From Coralloluteibacterium stylophorae (lineage in GTDB: Bacteria; Pseudomonadota; Gammaproteobacteria; Xanthomonadales; Xanthomonadaceae), in contig NZ_JAGQFT020000001.1 in NCBI RefSeq assembly GCF_018122625.2, forward strand, positions 62,001-126,000: a stretch of DNA of 64,000 nucleotides. The letters run 5' to 3'. Within the stretch, counting starts at the first letter, position 1, and the number at the start of each line of letters is the position of its first letter. Made by a program: the position numbers and the translations under genes. The notes beneath the pieces were generated by a model. That model was given only the letters and a program-made list of their open reading frames with translations, had not been told where the DNA came from and did no database searches. Below, piece by piece: positions 9,828 through 63,142 of the stretch.

Positions 9828-10733
9828 ATGAAGCAGGTATCAGGCACCGACGAGCGCCGGCCCGGCCAGCTCCAGGCTTTCGAGGCCGTCCGGCCGCGGC
9901 TGCTGGGGCTGGCCTATCGCATCCTGGGCTCGCATGCGGATGCCGAGGATGCGGTGCAGGACACGTTCCTGAAATGGCAGGCGGACGAGCGCGAGGCGGT
10001 CGCCAATCCCGCCGCCTGGCTCACCACCGTCTGCACCCGGCATTGCCTGGACATGTTGCGTGCGGGCGACCGCGCGCGGGTGGACTACGTGGGGCCGTGG
10101 CTGCCGGAGCCGGTGCAGACCGCGGCGGACGCAGGCGAGGATGTCGCCATGGCCGCGTCCCTGACCACCGCCTTCCTGCTCGCGTTGCAGCGCCTGACCC
10201 CGAAGGAGCGGGCGGCCTACCTGCTGTACGAGATCTTCGACATGCCGTATCCGGACGTCGCCCGCACGCTCGGCCTGCAGGAGCCGGCCTGCCGCCAGCT
10301 GGTGGCGCGCGCGCGGGGCCACATCGAGCGCGGGAAGGTGCGCCAGGTGACCCCGCCGGACCGGCAGCGGCGCCTGCTCGACGCCTTCGGCGAGGCCGTC
10401 GCGACCGGCTCCACGTCCCGCCTGGCGCGGCTGCTCGCCGCGGACGTGCGCCTGTCCGCGGACGGCGGCGGCAAGGTCTCGGCCACGCGCAGGATCATGC
10501 GCGGGCCTGCCGAGGTGCTGCGCTTCGTCGAGGCGGGCCTGCACGTGTGGTGGGCGGGGGCGGCGATCGAGGAGGTGGCCCTCAACGGCGGTCGTGGCCT
10601 CCTGGTCCGGGATGGCGGCGGCATCACCGCGGCGGTGTCGTTCGGCTACGACGCCGACGGCCGGCTCGGTGACATCTTCGTCATGCGCAATCCGGACAAG
10701 CTCGCGCGGCTGGACCCGGCCGCGCTGCACTAG
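9828..10733 (+). CDS. ECF41-type RNA polymerase sigma factor (SigJ-like) with SnoaL-like C-terminal domain
   Basis: A 301-residue sigma-70 factor of the extracytoplasmic-function class. Sigma2 covers about 12-85 (LGLAYRILGSHADAEDAVQD), sigma4 about 105-170. It has the ECF41 hallmarks: WLPEP linker at residues 91-95, then a SnoaL_2-like C-terminal extension carrying DGGGK (212-216) and NPDKL (288-292), which in studied members controls activity in place of an anti-sigma factor. GGAGGAGG just before the ATG is a strong ribosome site. Family members usually sit beside a carboxymuconolactone decarboxylase, oxidoreductase or epimerase gene; none is adjacent here. The stop codon overlaps that of the convergent DUF5916 gene. 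Confidence 0.93.
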   Translation: MKQVSGTDERRPGQLQAFEAVRPRLLGLAYRILGSHADAEDAVQDTFLKWQADEREAVANPAAWLTTVCTRHCLDMLRAGDRARVDYVGPWLPEPVQTAADAGEDVAMAASLTTAFLLALQRLTPKERAAYLLYEIFDMPYPDVARTLGLQEPACRQLVARARGHIERGKVRQVTPPDRQRRLLDAFGEAVATGSTSRLARLLAADVRLSADGGGKVSATRRIMRGPAEVLRFVEAGLHVWWAGAAIEEVALNGGRGLLVRDGGGITAAVSFGYDADGRLGDIFVMRNPDKLARLDPAALH

Positions 10734-12961
10734 ATCTCGAAGCGGTAGCTCAGCTTGACCAGGAGCTGCTCGTCGTCGCGCAGGTCGAAGGCGTCGCCCA
10801 GCAGGGCGCCGGTGCCCTGGTCGGCGTAGGGGTCCTCGGCATAGCCGCCGCGGCCGTAGACCACGTACAGGAACGACAGCGGCGCGAGCTCGTAGCGGTA
10901 GCGGAGCTGGACGCCGAGGGTGCGCACGCTGAGATCGTCCACCGTCTCGGCGCTCGCCAGCGCCTCGCCGTCGGGCGCGATGCGATAAGCCTGGCGCAGC
11001 TCGCCCTCCAGCGCGATCGCCTGCAGCTTGAGCCGCAGCTCCTGGCGCCGGCCGAGGAGCCAGGTGAATCCGGCATCGATATGCGCCTCGCGCGCGTCGT
11101 ACTCGCCGATCAGGGTGTCGCGCTGCCAGACCAGCCACGACGGCGTGTGCTCCAGATAGCCGCCGAGGTAGACGTTGAGCGCGTCGCTGACGAAGTACAG
11201 CGGCGTATAGGCCAGGCTGTAGCCGAGACGGTCGTTGCCGGCGAGGCCGCCGCCGTAGAGTTCGGCCTCCAGCTCGTGCGCCCAGTCGCCCTTGCGCGGC
11301 CGGCTGTACTCGACATACGCGCCGAAGCTCGGCGGCAGCCGCACCGGACCGTTGCCGCGGGTGAGCAGGTCGTCGACGCGCGCGCTGTTGACGTTGATCT
11401 GCGCGTACTCGCTGCTGCCGTTGCGGAGCTGGCTGTCGCGGCTGATGCGGAACTGGTGGTTGAGGCGTTCGCCGTGGTCGTTGTAGTTGCCGGAGACGCG
11501 CCAGCGCCAGTCCTTGGCGGCGTAGCGCGAGTCGGCGGGCAGCTCGGTGAAGCGGCGCTGCACCTGCCAGTGCGCGTAGTTGGTGCTGTTGCGCGCCAGG
11601 TAGCCGGCGTCGTTGAGTTCGAGCTCGTCGCCGAAGTGCATGGCGATCCACTGCTGGCGCCAGCCGCGGTCCATCTCGTAGTCGGCCCAGACGGTGGCGC
11701 CGGTGTCGCGGGCGGTGGCGCCGTCGTCGCGGATGTCGCTGCCGATGAGGCGCGTGCGCACGTTCCAGCGCGGCGTCGGGCGCCAGTCGTGGTCGATGCC
11801 GACGACCGTCGCCTCGCGGTCCAGGAACGGGCGGTCGACGTGCGTCGCCATCAGGCCCAGGTTCTGCGTCGGAAAGTCGCGCACCAGGCGCAGCGCCTGG
11901 AAGCTGCGACCGGCTTCGCCGGCCTCCTCGGCACTGAACACGCCGTACTTGGTCGCCCCGAAGCTGCCGTTGAGCTTGAGCGCGGCATCGATGTCGGCCG
12001 CGCCGCTGCCGTCGTCGGCCGGGCCGCCGATGCGGCGCGTGTAGAGGAGCTGACTGTAGTCGGAGGGCGTGGTGAATTCGAACAGGCCCTGGTTCTCGGT
12101 GAAGAACGGGCGCTTGTCGCTGAAGAAGATCTCGGTGGCATCGAAGTTCACCACCAGGTCGTCGCTCTCGACCTGCCCGAAGTCCGGATTGACCGTGGCG
12201 GTGAGCTGGAACTGGCCGTTGGGCTTCCAGAACACGTCGCCGCCGAACTTGGTCTCGCCGCTGCCGTCGACCTTGTCGTACAGCGCCGAGGCGTAGGGCG
12301 TGATCGCCAGCAGCGACTGGCTGTACTTGCGCAGCTCGACCGGCGCGAACTCGGAGACGAAGCGCGGGCGCTCGTAGCTCGCCAGCGGCCAGGCCATGCG
12401 CTCGCCGGTGGCGCCGACGACGCGGTCCAGGTACAGGCCGAGCGTGCGCAGTTCGCCCTCGGCGCCGCGCATGGGCGCGATGTGCCAGGGCACCAGCATC
12501 TCGACCGACCAGCCGTCGGCGTCCTCGGCGACCGCATGCCGCCAGTCGCCGTCCCAGTCGTCGTTGAAGCTCGACTCGTTGCTGATGATCGCGTCGTAGA
12601 TGTCGTCGGTGGAGCTCACCGTGAAGTTGTAGGCGGTGCGCCCGTCGCCGTCGAAGTCGACCATCAGGTTCACCCGGTCGACCTGCTCGTCGAAGTCGCG
12701 CTGCACGCGCTGGCGGGTCCGCGGAACGCTGGCCGGCTGCACGTTGCGGAAGGCGATCGCCAGCCCGTCCGGCGTAGCGAGGATCCAGGCTTCCGTCGGC
12801 AGCGAACCCGGCTCGCCGTTGAGCGGCTGGGTCTTGCGGAAGTCGGTGACGTGCCGCGCGCCGGACCATTCGTCGGGATCGATGCGCCCATCGACCTCGA
12901 TGGCCAGCGCCGGGGCCAGGGGCAGGACGGTCAGGAACGCCAGCAGGCGGACGGTGGACAT
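10730..12961 (-). CDS. DUF5916 family protein with CBM9-like N-terminal domain
   Basis: A 743-residue exported protein. Residues 1-19 form a signal peptide (MSTVRLLAFLTVLPLAPALA). Residues 20-220 resemble the carbohydrate-binding CBM9-like domain that opens DUF5916 proteins (VDGRIDPDEW, YNFTVSSTDDIYDA). The rest is the DUF5916 domain, rich in alternating beta strands and ending in a strand with a terminal phenylalanine region (LSYRFEI), as in outer-membrane beta-barrels. The PDFGQVESD and FFSDKRPFFTENQGLF stretches are typical of the family. Function unknown; it is common in Bacteroidetes and xanthomonads and suspected in outer-membrane binding or transport. Transcribed alone, tail to tail with the sigma factor. 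Confidence 0.88.
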   Translation of the reverse strand: MSTVRLLAFLTVLPLAPALAIEVDGRIDPDEWSGARHVTDFRKTQPLNGEPGSLPTEAWILATPDGLAIAFRNVQPASVPRTRQRVQRDFDEQVDRVNLMVDFDGDGRTAYNFTVSSTDDIYDAIISNESSFNDDWDGDWRHAVAEDADGWSVEMLVPWHIAPMRGAEGELRTLGLYLDRVVGATGERMAWPLASYERPRFVSEFAPVELRKYSQSLLAITPYASALYDKVDGSGETKFGGDVFWKPNGQFQLTATVNPDFGQVESDDLVVNFDATEIFFSDKRPFFTENQGLFEFTTPSDYSQLLYTRRIGGPADDGSGAADIDAALKLNGSFGATKYGVFSAEEAGEAGRSFQALRLVRDFPTQNLGLMATHVDRPFLDREATVVGIDHDWRPTPRWNVRTRLIGSDIRDDGATARDTGATVWADYEMDRGWRQQWIAMHFGDELELNDAGYLARNSTNYAHWQVQRRFTELPADSRYAAKDWRWRVSGNYNDHGERLNHQFRISRDSQLRNGSSEYAQINVNSARVDDLLTRGNGPVRLPPSFGAYVEYSRPRKGDWAHELEAELYGGGLAGNDRLGYSLAYTPLYFVSDALNVYLGGYLEHTPSWLVWQRDTLIGEYDAREAHIDAGFTWLLGRRQELRLKLQAIALEGELRQAYRIAPDGEALASAETVDDLSVRTLGVQLRYRYELAPLSFLYVVYGRGGYAEDPYADQGTGALLGDAFDLRDDEQLLVKLSYRFEI

Positions 12962-13164
12962 CGGCGTGGTCCGGGTGGGCCGGTCGATCCGGCTGCGGCA
13001 CCGTAGCGGCGCCTGCGCGTGCGCCGAACTGCCATCGGTCATTGCAACCCTTCGGCGCCGGGCTGCATCGCGAAGGGCGAAGGGCGAAGGGCGTGGGGCG
13101 ACGAGCGAGGGGCGATGGCCGGGGCCAGCGCCGAATGCAAGGGCCGCTGTCGCGAGGCGCTCCT

Positions 13165-13248
13165 CTGTGGGAGGGGCTTCAGCCCCGACCGCGCGGCAGG
13201 CTGAGCTGTCGGGGCTGAAGCCCCTCCCACAGAAGTGGACAGCGCGCG
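13165..13248. repeat. extragenic palindrome module, copy 1
   Basis: Arms 13165-13189 (CTGTGGGAGGGGCTTCAGCC...) and 13208-13232 are perfect 25-nt inverted complements separated by an 18-nt loop, followed by a 16-nt tail ending GTGGACAGCGCGC. Transcripts would fold into a very stable hairpin. Copy 2 at 13421 shares arms, loop and tail. Confidence 0.85.
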
Positions 13249-13360
13249 GATTCGCACGAGGCCCGGACGTCCGAGCCCGAGCCAAGGGCGAGGATTCGAA
13301 GTTCCCGGCTCCAAGCCTCAGCCGTCCGTCGCTGCAGGACAGCTGATCGGAGCTCAAACC

Positions 13361-13383
13361 GTAGGAGCGGCTTCAGCCGCGAC
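13361..13383 (+). repeat. extragenic palindrome unit (GTAGGAGCGG type)
   Basis: A 23-nt GTAGGAGCGG...CCGCGAC unit with the internal palindrome GCGGCTTCAGCCGC. The complementary orientation is at 13656-13678, and further copies occur at 54034, 63120 and in variant form at 52218. Confidence 0.8.
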
Positions 13384-13420
13384 ACGTCGATGTGCGAGGA
13401 CCTTGTTCCGACGCGCTCTC

Positions 13421-13504
13421 TTGTGGGAGGGGCTTTAGCCCCGACTGCGCGGCAGGCGGAGCTGTCGGGGGCTGAAGCCCCTCCCACAGAAGTGGACAGC
13501 GCGC
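13421..13504. repeat. extragenic palindrome module, copy 2
   Basis: Near-duplicate of the 13165 module: arms 13421-13445 and 13464-13488, the same CGCGGCAGGC-type loop and the same GTGGACAGCGCGC tail. It differs by a C-to-T change in the left arm (GGCTTTAGCC) and one extra G in the right arm, so the stem has small imperfections. Confidence 0.85.
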
Positions 13505-13655
13505 TAACCCGCCCCGGGCTCAGATCCCCGAGCCCAGTCAAGGTTGAGGCTCCGAAGGCCCAGAGTTCAAGGCCCGGGACGCAAGCCCGAGCCTCGAGTC
13601 TAACCCGATCTCCGAGCCCCAGGCCCGAAGCCCCCCAACGCCTAACCCGCATCCC

Positions 13656-13678
13656 GTCGCGGCTGAAGCCGCTCCTAC
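13656..13678 (-). repeat. extragenic palindrome unit (GTAGGAGCGG type, reverse)
   Basis: Exact reverse complement of the 13361-13383 unit, 16 bp beyond the end of hutU. The two form an inverted pair enclosing the second hairpin module. It could act as a transcript-end stabiliser for hutHU. Confidence 0.8.
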
Positions 13679-13693: not shown

Positions 13694-15355
13694 TCAGAGC
13701 ATCGGCAGGTCGAGGCCCCTTTCGCGGGCGCAGTCGATGGCGATGTCGTAGCCGGCATCGGCGTGGCGCATGACGCCGGTGGCGGGGTCGTTCCACAGGA
13801 CGCGGGCGATGCGGCGGTCGGCGGCCTCGCTGCCGTCGCAGACGACGACCACGCCGGAATGCTGCGAGTAGCCCATGCCGACGCCGCCACCGTGGTGCAG
13901 CGAAACCCAGGTCGCGCCGCCGGCGACGTTGAGCATGGCGTTGAGCAGCGGCCAGTCGGAGACCGCGTCGGAGCCGTCGCGCATCGCCTCCGTCTCGCGG
14001 TTGGGCGAGGCGACCGAGCCGGAATCGAGATGGTCGCGGCCGATCACCACCGGCGCCTTGAGCTCGCCCTTGCGCACCATCTCGTTGAAGGCGAGGCCGA
14101 GCCGGTCGCGCAGGCCCAGGCCGACCCAGCAGATCCGCGCCGGCAGGCCCTGGAAGGCGATGCGCTCGGCGGCCATGTCCAGCCAGCGGTGCAGGTGCGG
14201 ATCGTCGGGGATCAGTTCCTTGACCTTGGCATCGGTCTTCGCGATGTCCTCCGGGTCGCCCGACAGCGCCACCCAGCGGAACGGGCCCACGCCGCGGCAG
14301 AACAGCGGGCGCACGTAGGCCGGCACGAAGCCGGGGAAGGCGAAGGCGTCGGCGCAGCCGGCGTCGTGGGCCATCTGCCGGATGTTGTTGCCGTAGTCGA
14401 CCGTCGGCACGCCTTGCGCATGCATCGCCAGCATCGCCTCGACGTGCACGCGCATGGACGCCTTCGCCGCGTCGCGTACGGCATCCGGGTCGGCCGCCTG
14501 TTCGCGCTGCCACCGTTCCACGCTCCAGCCGGCGGGCAGGTAGCCGTGCACCGGATCGTGGGCCGAGGTCTGGTCGGTGAGCGCGTCCGGGCGCACCCCG
14601 CGGCGCACCAGCTCGGGCAGGATCTCGGCGGCGTTGCCGAGCAGGGCGATCGACCTCGCCTCGCCGGCCTGCGTGCAGCGCGCGATGCGCGCCAGCGCGT
14701 CGTCGAGGTCGCTCGCCTGCTCGTCGACGTAGCGCGTCTTCAGGCGCATGTCGATGCGGCTCTGCTGGCATTCGATGGCGAGCATGGATGCGCCGGCCAT
14801 GACCGCGGCAAGCGGCTGTGCGCCGCCCATGCCGCCGAGGCCGGCGGTGAGGATCCAGCGCCCGCCGAGGTCGCCGCCGTAGTGCTGGCGGCCCATCTCG
14901 ACGAAGGTTTCGTAGGTGCCCTGCACGATGCCCTGCGAGCCGATGTAGATCCACGAGCCCGCGGTCATCTGCCCGTACATCATCAGGCCCTGGCGGTCGA
15001 GCGCGTGGAAGTGCTCCCAGTTGGCCCAGGCCGGCACCAGGTTGGAGTTGGCGATCAGCACGCGCGGGGCGTCGACGTGGGTGCGGAACACGCCCACCGG
15101 CTTGCCCGACTGCACCAGCAGGGTCTGGTCGTCGTCCATGCGCGCGAGCGTGGCGACGATGCGGTCGAAGCTCTCCCAGTCTCGCGCGGCGCGGCCGATG
15201 CCGCCGTAGACGACCAGGTCCTCGGGCCGCTCGGCGACCTCGGGGTCGAGGTTGTTCATCAGCATGCGCAGCGGCGCCTCGGTCAGCCAGCTCCTTGCGG
15301 TGAGGGCGCTGCCGCGCGGGGCGCGGATGCGGCGGGACGGATCGGTGCGGGTCAT
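13694..15355 (-). CDS. hutU: urocanate hydratase
   Basis: A 553-residue cytosolic enzyme, full length for the family. It converts urocanate to imidazolonepropionate, step two of histidine degradation, using tightly bound NAD. Recognised from the family-wide blocks [37 protein letters not shown] and the C-terminal [20 protein letters not shown]. The start at 15355 lies 13 bp after the stop of hutH, so the two form an operon transcribed away from hutFC. The preceding spacer holds the HutC operator. Downstream is a palindrome cluster that may stabilise or end the transcript. Confidence 0.98.
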
Positions 15356-15368
15356 GCGGCCTCCGGCT

Positions 15369-51218: not shown

Positions 51219-52220
51219 ATGGCCTGGCGCAACCCGCACTACGACCCGCACAAGCCGCACCACACGCCGCAGGGCTTCCGCAATCCGGACCCCGACACGC
51301 GCGGCAGCGGCGATCTCCGGCGCTGGCGCCGCGAACGCCGCGAGCAGGGCCTGCCGAAGCCGCCCGCCGGGGGCTACGACGCGTTCCGTAGCGCCTGGTG
51401 CGGGCAGGCCGACTTCGGCGGCGGCGAGGACGCGGCGTGGTGGCTGGGGCATGCCAGCGTGCTGCTGCGGGTCGGCGAGCGCACGGTGCTCACCGATCCG
51501 ATACTGTCCGGGCGCGCCTCGCCGCTGCGCTTCGCAGGCCCGCAGCGGCGGACGCCGCCGGCGGCGACGGTGGCGACGCTGCCGCCGATCGACGCGGTCC
51601 TGCTCTCGCACAACCACTACGACCATCTCGACTACGACAGCATCCGGCGCCTGGTGCGGCGTTTTCCCGACGCGGCGTTCCTGGTTCCGCTGGGCCTGGG
51701 CGACTGGCTGCGCCGGCGCGGCGCGCGCAGCGTGCACGAACTCGACTGGTGGGACGCGACCGAAGTCCACGGCCTTCGCTTCGACTGCGCGCCGGCGCGC
51801 CACTGGAGCGCGCGGACGCCGTGGGACACGAACCGCTCGCTGTGGTGCGGCTGGACCGTGCGCCGCGCGGCGTTCGCCTTCTACTTCGCCGGCGACACCG
51901 GCTGGAGCGAGCGCCTGGGCGAGATCGCGCGGCTCGGACCCTTCGACCTCGCCGCGATCCCGATCGGCGCGTATTCGCCGCGCTGGTTCATGCGCGGCCA
52001 GCACATCGATCCGGCCGAGGCGGTGCGCCTGCACCGCGCGGTCGGCGCGCGGCGCAGCATCGGCATCCACTGGGGCACCTTCGAGCTGGCCGACGATGCG
52101 CTCGACGAGCCGCCGCGCCTGCTCGCCGATGCCCGTCGCGCGGCCAGCCTCGCCGACGAGGCCTTCCGCACGGTGCGCATCGGCGAGCGCATCGTCTGGG
52201 CGAACGCGAGCTCCGTATAG
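51219..52220 (+). CDS. MBL-fold metal-dependent hydrolase (NAPE-PLD/UlaG-like)
   Basis: A 333-residue metallo-beta-lactamase-fold protein. The metal site is SHNHYDHLD with His131, His133, Asp135, His136; further ligands lie in APARHWS, AGDTGWS and IGIHWGTF. Best resemblance is to NAPE-phospholipase D/UlaG-like enzymes. No signal peptide. GAAGGA precedes the ATG. The TAG stop codon lies inside an extragenic palindrome at 52218. Confidence 0.92.
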   Translation: MAWRNPHYDPHKPHHTPQGFRNPDPDTRGSGDLRRWRRERREQGLPKPPAGGYDAFRSAWCGQADFGGGEDAAWWLGHASVLLRVGERTVLTDPILSGRASPLRFAGPQRRTPPAATVATLPPIDAVLLSHNHYDHLDYDSIRRLVRRFPDAAFLVPLGLGDWLRRRGARSVHELDWWDATEVHGLRFDCAPARHWSARTPWDTNRSLWCGWTVRRAAFAFYFAGDTGWSERLGEIARLGPFDLAAIPIGAYSPRWFMRGQHIDPAEAVRLHRAVGARRSIGIHWGTFELADDALDEPPRLLADARRAASLADEAFRTVRIGERIVWANASSV

Positions 52221-52239
52221 GAGCCGCTTCAGCCGCGAC
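52218..52239 (+). repeat. extragenic palindrome (variant) supplying the stop codon of the MBL gene
   Basis: TAGGAGCCGCTTCAGCCGCGAC, the GTAGGAGCGG-type unit with one extra internal change. Its first three bases are the MBL gene's TAG stop. It lies between two convergent genes and may also act as a transcript-end hairpin. Confidence 0.8.
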
Positions 52240-53380: not shown

Positions 53381-54037
53381 ATGAGCGAGGCCGAAGCGAG
53401 CGAGAGCGCCGTGCTGAGCGGCAGCGAGGTGCGCGTACTGGCGTGCCTGGTGGAGAAGGAGGCGACCACGCCCGAGACCTATCCGCTGACCGAGAACGCG
53501 GTGCAGCTGGCCTGCAACCAGAAGAGCAACCGCGAGCCGGTGCTGGAACTGGGCGTGGGCGAGGTCGGCCATGCGTTGCGCTCGCTGGAGACGCGCGGGC
53601 TCGCGCGCGGCGTGCACGGGGCGCGTGCGCAGCGCTGGGAGCATCGCTTCGCGGACGGCTACTCGCTCACGCGCGCGCAGCAGGCCCTGCTCGCGGTGCT
53701 GATGCTGCGCGGTGCGCAGACCGCGTCGGAACTGTTCGCACGCGGCGAGCGGCTCGCGAAGCTGTCCGATCTCGACGAGGCCCGCCACTGCCTCGAACGC
53801 CTGGCCGCGCGCGAGCCGGCGCTGGTGGTGAACGTCGGCCGCGGCGCCGGGCAGCGCGAGGACCGCTGGATGCACCTGCTCGCCGGCCCCGTCGAAGTGG
53901 AGGCCGTGCGCGCGGCCGCTCCCGCGTCCGGTCCTGCGCGCGGCGCCCTGGACGCACGCGTCGAGGCGCTGGAGGCCGAAGTCGCGCGGCTGCGCGAGCT
54001 GGTCGAGCGCGTCGCGGGCCAGCCACCCGACCTGTAG
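53381..54037 (+). CDS. yceH: YceH (DUF480) family protein
   Basis: A 218-residue protein with two winged-helix-like DUF480 domains. The blocks [15 protein letters not shown]-like ([15 protein letters not shown]) and [10 protein letters not shown] identify YceH. The C-terminal 25 residues form a coiled coil ([17 protein letters not shown]). It is widespread in proteobacteria; function is not established. The stop codon is provided by an extragenic palindrome at 54034. Confidence 0.93.
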
Positions 54038-54056
54038 GAGCGGCTTCAGCCGCGAC
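54034..54056 (+). repeat. extragenic palindrome supplying the stop codon of yceH
   Basis: Exact copy of the 23-nt GTAGGAGCGG...CCGCGAC unit seen at 13361. The TAG within it (54035-54037) is the yceH stop. A second, TGTGGGAGCGG-type unit follows 35 bp later. Confidence 0.85.
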
Positions 54057-54091
54057 CGCACGTCGACGGTCCCCGCCGCGGGCGCCCTCGG

Positions 54092-54157
54092 TGTGGGAGC
54101 GGCTTCAGCCGCGACCGCCGACACGCGGACCGCCGTCCGGGCTGAAGCCCCTCCCAC
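54092..54157. repeat. pair of facing extragenic palindrome arms
   Basis: TGTGGGAGCGGCTTCAGCCGCGAC at 54092-54115 and, in the opposite orientation, GTCCGGGCTGAAGCCCCTCCCAC at 54135-54157. The arms are imperfect complements, mixing the GCGG and GGGG variants of the core. They lie between yceH and selO. Confidence 0.8.
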
Positions 54158-63069: not shown

Positions 63070-63142
63070 TGTGGGAGGGGCTTCAGCCCGGACGGCGGGT
63101 GCTCGGGTGACCAGCGCGGGTCGCGGCTGAAGCCGCTCCTAC
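63070..63142. repeat. extragenic palindrome pair between dbpA and DUF1415
   Basis: TGTGGGAGGGGCTTCAGCCCGGAC at 63070-63093 faces GTCGCGGCTGAAGCCGCTCCTAC at 63120-63142. The two arms are of different subtypes, as in the 54092 pair. Located downstream of dbpA and upstream of the DUF1415 gene. Confidence 0.8.

Follow-up and report, generated by a model that had tools for sequence, protein, structure and literature searches.

REP hairpins beside hutU in Coralloluteibacterium stylophorae: two classes in polar order and a candidate RAYT transposase

In the genome of Coralloluteibacterium stylophorae, the spacer between the urocanate hydratase gene hutU and the next downstream gene, which encodes a DUF5916 protein, carries six 23-nt hairpins that belong to a family of repetitive extragenic palindromes (REPs). 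The spacer lies in a 64,000-nucleotide stretch of contig NZ_JAGQFT020000001.1 (positions 62,001 to 126,000; RefSeq assembly GCF_018122625.2) that was analysed as a whole and is referred to here as the window. The hairpins very probably form a composite cluster resembling the bacterial interspersed mosaic elements (BIMEs), made up of non-autonomous palindromes whose most likely copying enzyme is a REP-associated tyrosine transposase (RAYT) encoded at C5:227487-227978. The hutU site itself is ordinary and so is the element in kind; the unusual part is the architecture of the clusters, in which two REP classes follow one another with a definite polarity and tandem pairs are frequent.

A REP family of two classes

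The repeats fall into class A (GTGGGAGGGGCTTCAGCCCCGAC), built as GTGGGAG-GGGC-TTCA-GCCC-CGAC, and class B (GTAGGAGCGGCTTCAGCCGCGAC), built as GTAGGAG-CGGC-TTCA-GCCG-CGAC. By consensus and fold both are palindromes within the 20-40 nt range of REPs and have a GTRG head, the tetranucleotide that marks these elements (PMC3733652, PMC3686654). The sequence-only reading of the window had described two repeat types and suspected mobilised, REP-like elements. Both types are real, but they are subclasses of a single REP family, their difference being one compensatory stem pair. Neither is unique to the spacer: across the 29 contigs of the 4.0-Mb genome there are 299 REP copies at no more than one mismatch, split 167 to 132 between the strands, and no copy of the reversed pattern. 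These genome-wide repeats, and the REP-bracketed RAYT described below, lend support at the level of sequence to the suspected mobility.

Counts by cluster refer throughout to 71 clusters, taken from the window and from 54 stretches selected for REPs or Y1 genes, which contain 209 of the 299 copies (at no more than one mismatch); copies in neither class are excluded from the A/B counts. The variable stem pair is Watson–Crick in 197 of these 209 copies (C-G in 101, G-C in 96) and mixed in 12, although much of this covariation could stem from two founder classes by descent. Where the stem is paired and the GTRG head intact (189 copies), head base and stem class agree in 163 and disagree in 26; the stem partners are therefore linked with one another more strongly than with the nearer head base. 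The base preceding the unit is T at 96% of 93 distinct class A sites and at 57% of 101 distinct class B sites.

That such a family arose by chance, or as an artefact of composition in a GC-rich genome, is vanishingly improbable. GC content is high, and the fold of a single 23-mer is unremarkable, being equalled by 15 of 200 shuffles for class A and 3 of 200 for class B. Chance is nevertheless refuted already by the copy counts, 299 against none for the reversed pattern (which is absent from all 79 genomes of the family searched), and by the folding of the two modules in the spacer, each an inverted pair of class A units: z-scores of -8.4, -6.9 and -8.7 were obtained, and none of 200 shuffles folds as well as either module. 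Nor does any of 100 shuffles match the fold of the whole spacer.

A candidate transposase and its link to the repeats

A PF01797 profile search identified five Y1 proteins in the genome, one of which exceeds the cut-off of the RAYT model NF047646 (128.3 bits against 80; 26.8 bits with PF01797). This protein, the RAYT at C5:227487-227978 (start codon picked by hand), is predicted from its sequence to be a Y1 (HUH) transposase of the REP-associated family; its sequence includes the HWH and Y-NP motifs of such enzymes. Its gene is enclosed by REPs at 2380 (+) and 2969 (-) of the surrounding locus (L022), with two more units outside these, all four being class A, and its TGA stop codon falls inside the downstream REP.

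The four other Y1 proteins (C4:399-409 kb) were considered as mobilisers and rejected, with scores of 61-69 bits, under the NF047646 cut-off; a sixth match to this model in the same region is a 22-bit fragment. Within 13.4 kb around their genes (L021) no hairpin of the A/B family was found, even at five mismatches. As a side observation, this stretch (G000:C4:396000-409446) holds four near-alike Y1 transposase genes in approximately 10 kb up to the contig end, one disrupted by an internal TAG, and an adjoining open reading frame (ORF) that presumably encodes an IS3-type transposase.

The association between repeats and RAYT extends to relatives. Of 79 genomes of the family, that of C. stylophorae included, 44 encode a RAYT over the cut-off, and at least ten REPs are present in 25 of these 44 as against 1 of the 35 without (Fisher P = 1.2e-7). 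Among the best 80 of 170 RAYT loci from the genome scan, 62 show a perfect-stem GTRGGAG hairpin no more than 600 nt away, the complementary stem partner being built into the search, and the stems vary (CGGC, GGGC, CGAC, GGAC, GGCC and others). Family-like hairpins occur at 2.42 per kb within 600 nt of these RAYTs and at 0.11 per kb beyond 1500 nt, a difference of about 20-fold.

Some observations weigh against so close a link. Of the 44 RAYT genomes, 19 fall short of ten REPs of this pattern, 15 of them lacking it altogether, which may reflect other REP classes in those genomes; one genome (G026) reaches ten REPs with no protein above the RAYT cut-off; and at 18 of the 80 RAYT loci no perfect-stem GTRGGAG hairpin was found within 600 nt.

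Class B outside, class A inside

The two classes are not arranged at random within clusters. Head-to-tail neighbours no more than 300 nt apart, taken along their own orientation, have B before A in 46 cases and A before B in 6, the 16 other head-to-tail neighbours being BB, AA or pairs with an unclassed unit. A vote by cluster gives 31 with B before A, 1 with A before B and 2 ties (P = 1.5e-8). The 41 clusters of at least three units have B at both ends in 23 cases and A at both ends in 1, and runs of two forward units followed by two reverse units read B-A-A-B in 6 of 9, where shuffling of the types gives a mean of 0.44; a single local duplication on contig C9 accounts for two of the six. Permutation of types counts such duplicated clusters as independent, whereas the cluster vote does not.

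Exact close tandem pairs across the genome show the same polarity, with 13 B-A pairs and no A-B pair. All 13 lie on the contig plus strand and none on the minus, though contig orientation should be arbitrary; they represent about nine independent loci. The linkers of these pairs differ by eye, save in local duplicates, and the B-A-A-B set was accordingly rejected as a single mobile unit.

Here 19 close pairs of any class are head-to-tail, a single array on C20 contributing 8, and 32 are head-to-head; in 78 relatives the corresponding counts are 5 and 378, with a head-to-head pair of classes A/B in 20 of the 78. The relatives' counts are of exact matches to classes A and B, to which REPs with other stems are invisible. 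Frequent tandem pairs and their polarity therefore distinguish this genome within the sample. We did not find a two-class order within clusters in the open-licence literature on REPs, BIMEs, REPINs (inverted REP doublets) and RAYTs, although it may still be in print.

Paired units and local duplication

Within 300 nt there are 68 head-to-head neighbours with a modal spacing of 48 nt, that is, close inverted pairs of the kind seen in REPINs and BIMEs. In a count of head-to-head pairs by class, the arms are both class A in 19 cases, mixed in 33 and both class B in 6, leaving aside 11 pairs with an unclassed unit. The unit is taken to be the 23-nt REP, given that its own stem covaries and that the two arms of a pair can belong to different classes; the 84-bp hairpin module proposed by the sequence-only reading was rejected in that role. 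Other parts of that reading held: the module does occur twice, with starts 256 bp apart and the tail GTGGACAGCGCGC in both copies, and facing units of the second type do flank the second copy. The homology is longer than the 84 bp, however, extending beyond the hairpins (Table 1), and with 135 of 169 alignment columns identical (80%) the local duplication, which had been thought perhaps recent, is real but not very recent. The two modules at hutU appear to have arisen by segmental duplication.

Comparable local duplications are present in other clusters. Inverted pairs of the same cluster resemble one another in flanks and interiors more than pairs of different clusters do (P = 3.6e-9; 19 comparisons within clusters, one array contributing 6, against 1872 between), and likeness between clusters averages 0.55, compared with 0.51 for shuffled sequences. 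One type of mixed pair, with related flanks and interior, recurs in four clusters (C1:222, C1:255, C1:258 and C5:205 kb), at 81-85% in the best between-cluster pairs listed; the interiors of the remaining pairs are mostly unrelated. No other regular array in the stretches examined is as long as that at G000:C5:60032-60770 (L023), a class A pair in four tandem copies with a 228-bp period.

Insertion history and alternative explanations

Had B entered A pairs, tandems with A before B would be expected; their rarity argues instead that A entered B pairs. A tentative history, which we regard as possible, is that class B spread first, that the partner REP of the RAYT then became class A through the flip of one stem pair, and that class A afterwards landed preferentially inside existing B pairs, so that the clusters would record the order of insertion. 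The RAYT would mobilise REPs through their single-stranded hairpins, and at present would work on class A, the class adjoining it. The Escherichia coli enzyme recognises single-stranded hairpins. If this history were true, REP hairpins would serve RAYT transposition both as substrate and as target. Observing REP transposition is difficult, and a genome with one RAYT over the cut-off, two near classes and strong nesting might offer a natural record of a later class and its landing sites.

The spacing of the units bears on this proposal in both directions. When the 23-nt A unit is removed from B-A-B trimers, the gap between the B units is 48-55 nt in 7 of 16, near the 48-nt mode of B-containing pairs. 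Against successive invasion, the other 9 trimers leave 71-146 nt and the six B-A-A-B sets leave 86-230 nt; the 48-nt modal spacing is the same for B-A and B-B head-to-head pairs, and replacement of an arm therefore fits at least as well as insertion; class B is just slightly more decayed than class A, with at least two mismatches in 16 of 117 copies as compared with 5 of 101 (P = 0.038); and in 26 of 189 copies head and stem disagree in class.

Alternatively, the nested order might be made by the copying itself, A and B being fixed arms of one composite BIME (comparable to Y and Z of E. coli) and not successive waves. The common mixed B-A head-to-head pairs, with their 48-nt mode, would suit such an element, as would the mixed-pair type shared by four clusters. 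We nonetheless consider fixed arms somewhat unlikely, as all four units around the RAYT are class A, the linkers of close B-A tandems vary between loci, and flanks and interiors are on average barely more alike between clusters than shuffled sequences.

A different proposal sets mobility aside as past and unimportant, the repeats being kept for a role at transcript ends, whether in stopping or protecting mRNA or in binding protein. Their placement is in line with such a role. On stretches that are 77% coding, 231 of 233 REPs (at no more than three mismatches) lie outside genes as predicted by a home-made, simple codon-usage caller, and the 63 clusters with both neighbours called are in tandem (40) or convergent (20) gene context far more than divergent (3). 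The outermost unit lies within 30 nt of the gene end in 31 of 86 cases at 3' ends and 1 of 48 at 5' ends. The hutU-side transcript has a folding z-score of -9.6, equalled by none of 100 shuffles. Of 63 class B units that are outermost in their cluster and next to a 3' end, 8 supply with the TAG of their head the stop codon of the adjoining predicted ORF (six as GTAG, one as ATAG, one as CTAG). Both the tandem and convergent context and the TAG-supplied stops are described for GTAG REPs (PMC3733652).

The same placement is, however, to be expected where insertions elsewhere get lost, and copy number tracks the presence of a RAYT. The arms of pairs, moreover, need not match. Comparison of the hutU locus also speaks against a retained function. 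No empty site and no difference between strains was observed, the genus being represented by one genome; the locus was compared in 28 more distant genomes with hutU, out of 29 others searched. A REP-like hairpin lies in the 1000 nt after hutU in 1 of the 28, leaving 27 without (in one of the loci, L175, 114 nt could be examined), and 6 of the 28 loci contain such hairpins somewhere in the fetched stretch; the hutU-side cluster is not conserved in place among these distant relatives. This comparison has a weakness of its own that counts against a reading based on mobility, in that DUF5916 was not found after hutU in the 28 relatives (up to 1500 nt examined), and the absence of hairpins there is therefore not a clean empty site. 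On balance we judge a transcript-end role as the main reason for the repeats to be unlikely, while an influence of the 3'-end hairpins on hutU, whose nearest REP lies 15 nt past the stop codon, is possible.

Relation to known systems

GTAG-type REPs and BIMEs are similar in their GTRG head, short stem, extragenic position and tandem or convergent context, as well as in TAG stop codons, hybrid clusters, complementary stem mutations and unrelated inter-REP segments; they differ in that close head-to-tail pairs are here frequent and polar, B then A (PMC3733652, PMC2817692, as far as the available text extends). The REPINs of Pseudomonas fluorescens SBW25 share inverted doublets, near-identical tandem arrays of doublets with their flanks, doublets inserted into or beside others, and RAYT-linked classes, whereas here most interiors show no relation from one locus to another, and clusters hold two classes in a set order (PMC3116915, in the portion available).

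The suggested class flip has a parallel in RAYT orthogroups of switched class, in which orthologous RAYTs are flanked by REPs with differing stems, abundance tracks the cognate RAYT, and deviations are attributed to mutation of the flanking REP or loss of the RAYT (PMC3686654). Several Pseudomonas REP classes in that study have the same GTRGGAG...CGA frame as the A/B family; the study covers fluorescent pseudomonads and Stenotrophomonas, and its two tables are without class A or B (PMC3686654). RAYTs have been proposed to copy their flanking REPs, as kin of the IS200/IS605 transposases, which recognise stem-loops (PMC2817692). To judge by the titles of the closest RAYT relatives, the system described here resembles those of the Xanthomonadaceae/Lysobacteraceae.

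The hutU–DUF5916 spacer and other features of the window

The spacer measures 732 bp, from the last base of hutU (13694) to the start of the DUF5916 gene (12961), both on the minus strand. Its six hairpins, at 13148-13678, comprise two class A inverted pairs and two class B units that face each other around the second pair (Table 1).

Table 1. Coordinates of REPs, duplicated segments and genes in the window
Feature	Position	Strand	Basis
Class A REP	13167..13189	+	exact match to pattern
Class A REP, inverted partner, spacing 41 nt	13208..13230	-	exact match to pattern
Class B REP, head outward, left bracket of pair 2	13361..13383	+	exact match to pattern
Class A REP, loop TTTA	13423..13445	+	match to pattern
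Class A REP, one extra G	about 13465..13488	-	3 mismatches ungapped; 1-base insertion visible in alignment
Class B REP, right bracket, 15 nt past hutU stop codon	13656..13678	-	exact match to pattern
Duplication copy 1, contains REP pair 1	13148..13315		local alignment to 13404-13571
Duplication copy 2, contains REP pair 2	13404..13571		local alignment to 13148-13315
hutU, urocanate hydratase	13694..15364	-	TIGR01228, 966.7 bits
DUF5916 protein gene, next downstream of hutU	10730..12961	-	PF19313, 103 bits
Further cluster: B(+) 54034, B(+) 54093, A(-) 54135	54034..54157		pattern match
Further cluster: A(+) 63071, B(-) 63120	63071..63142		pattern match

The whole module folds as a long hairpin. 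The description of it as two 25-nt arms needs correcting in that each arm is a small hairpin by itself, with a 5-bp stem and a TTCA loop. The 25-nt extensions of the two class B units are 100% complementary. An exact search of 189 loci for the tail shared by the modules found it at this site alone (in five overlapping loci) and in one copy in L084, a RAYT locus in another species. Leads from Rfam (microRNA and nadA models) were rejected, all 13 matches lying well under the gathering scores and reflecting the long hairpin.

Between the REPs, at 13249-13400 and 13506-13650, inspection by eye shows low complexity, with a mixture of CCGAGCCC-like words that the two duplicated segments have partly in common. 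Elsewhere in the window, the class B REPs at 52217-52239 and 54034-54056 give the preceding ORF its TAG stop, from ATAG or GTAG, which would be expected had they landed in the 3' end of the gene. A 14-nt GCGAAGGGCGAAGG-like repeat is present three times (86-100%) at 13070-13118, upstream of the DUF5916 gene and some 110 nt from its start.
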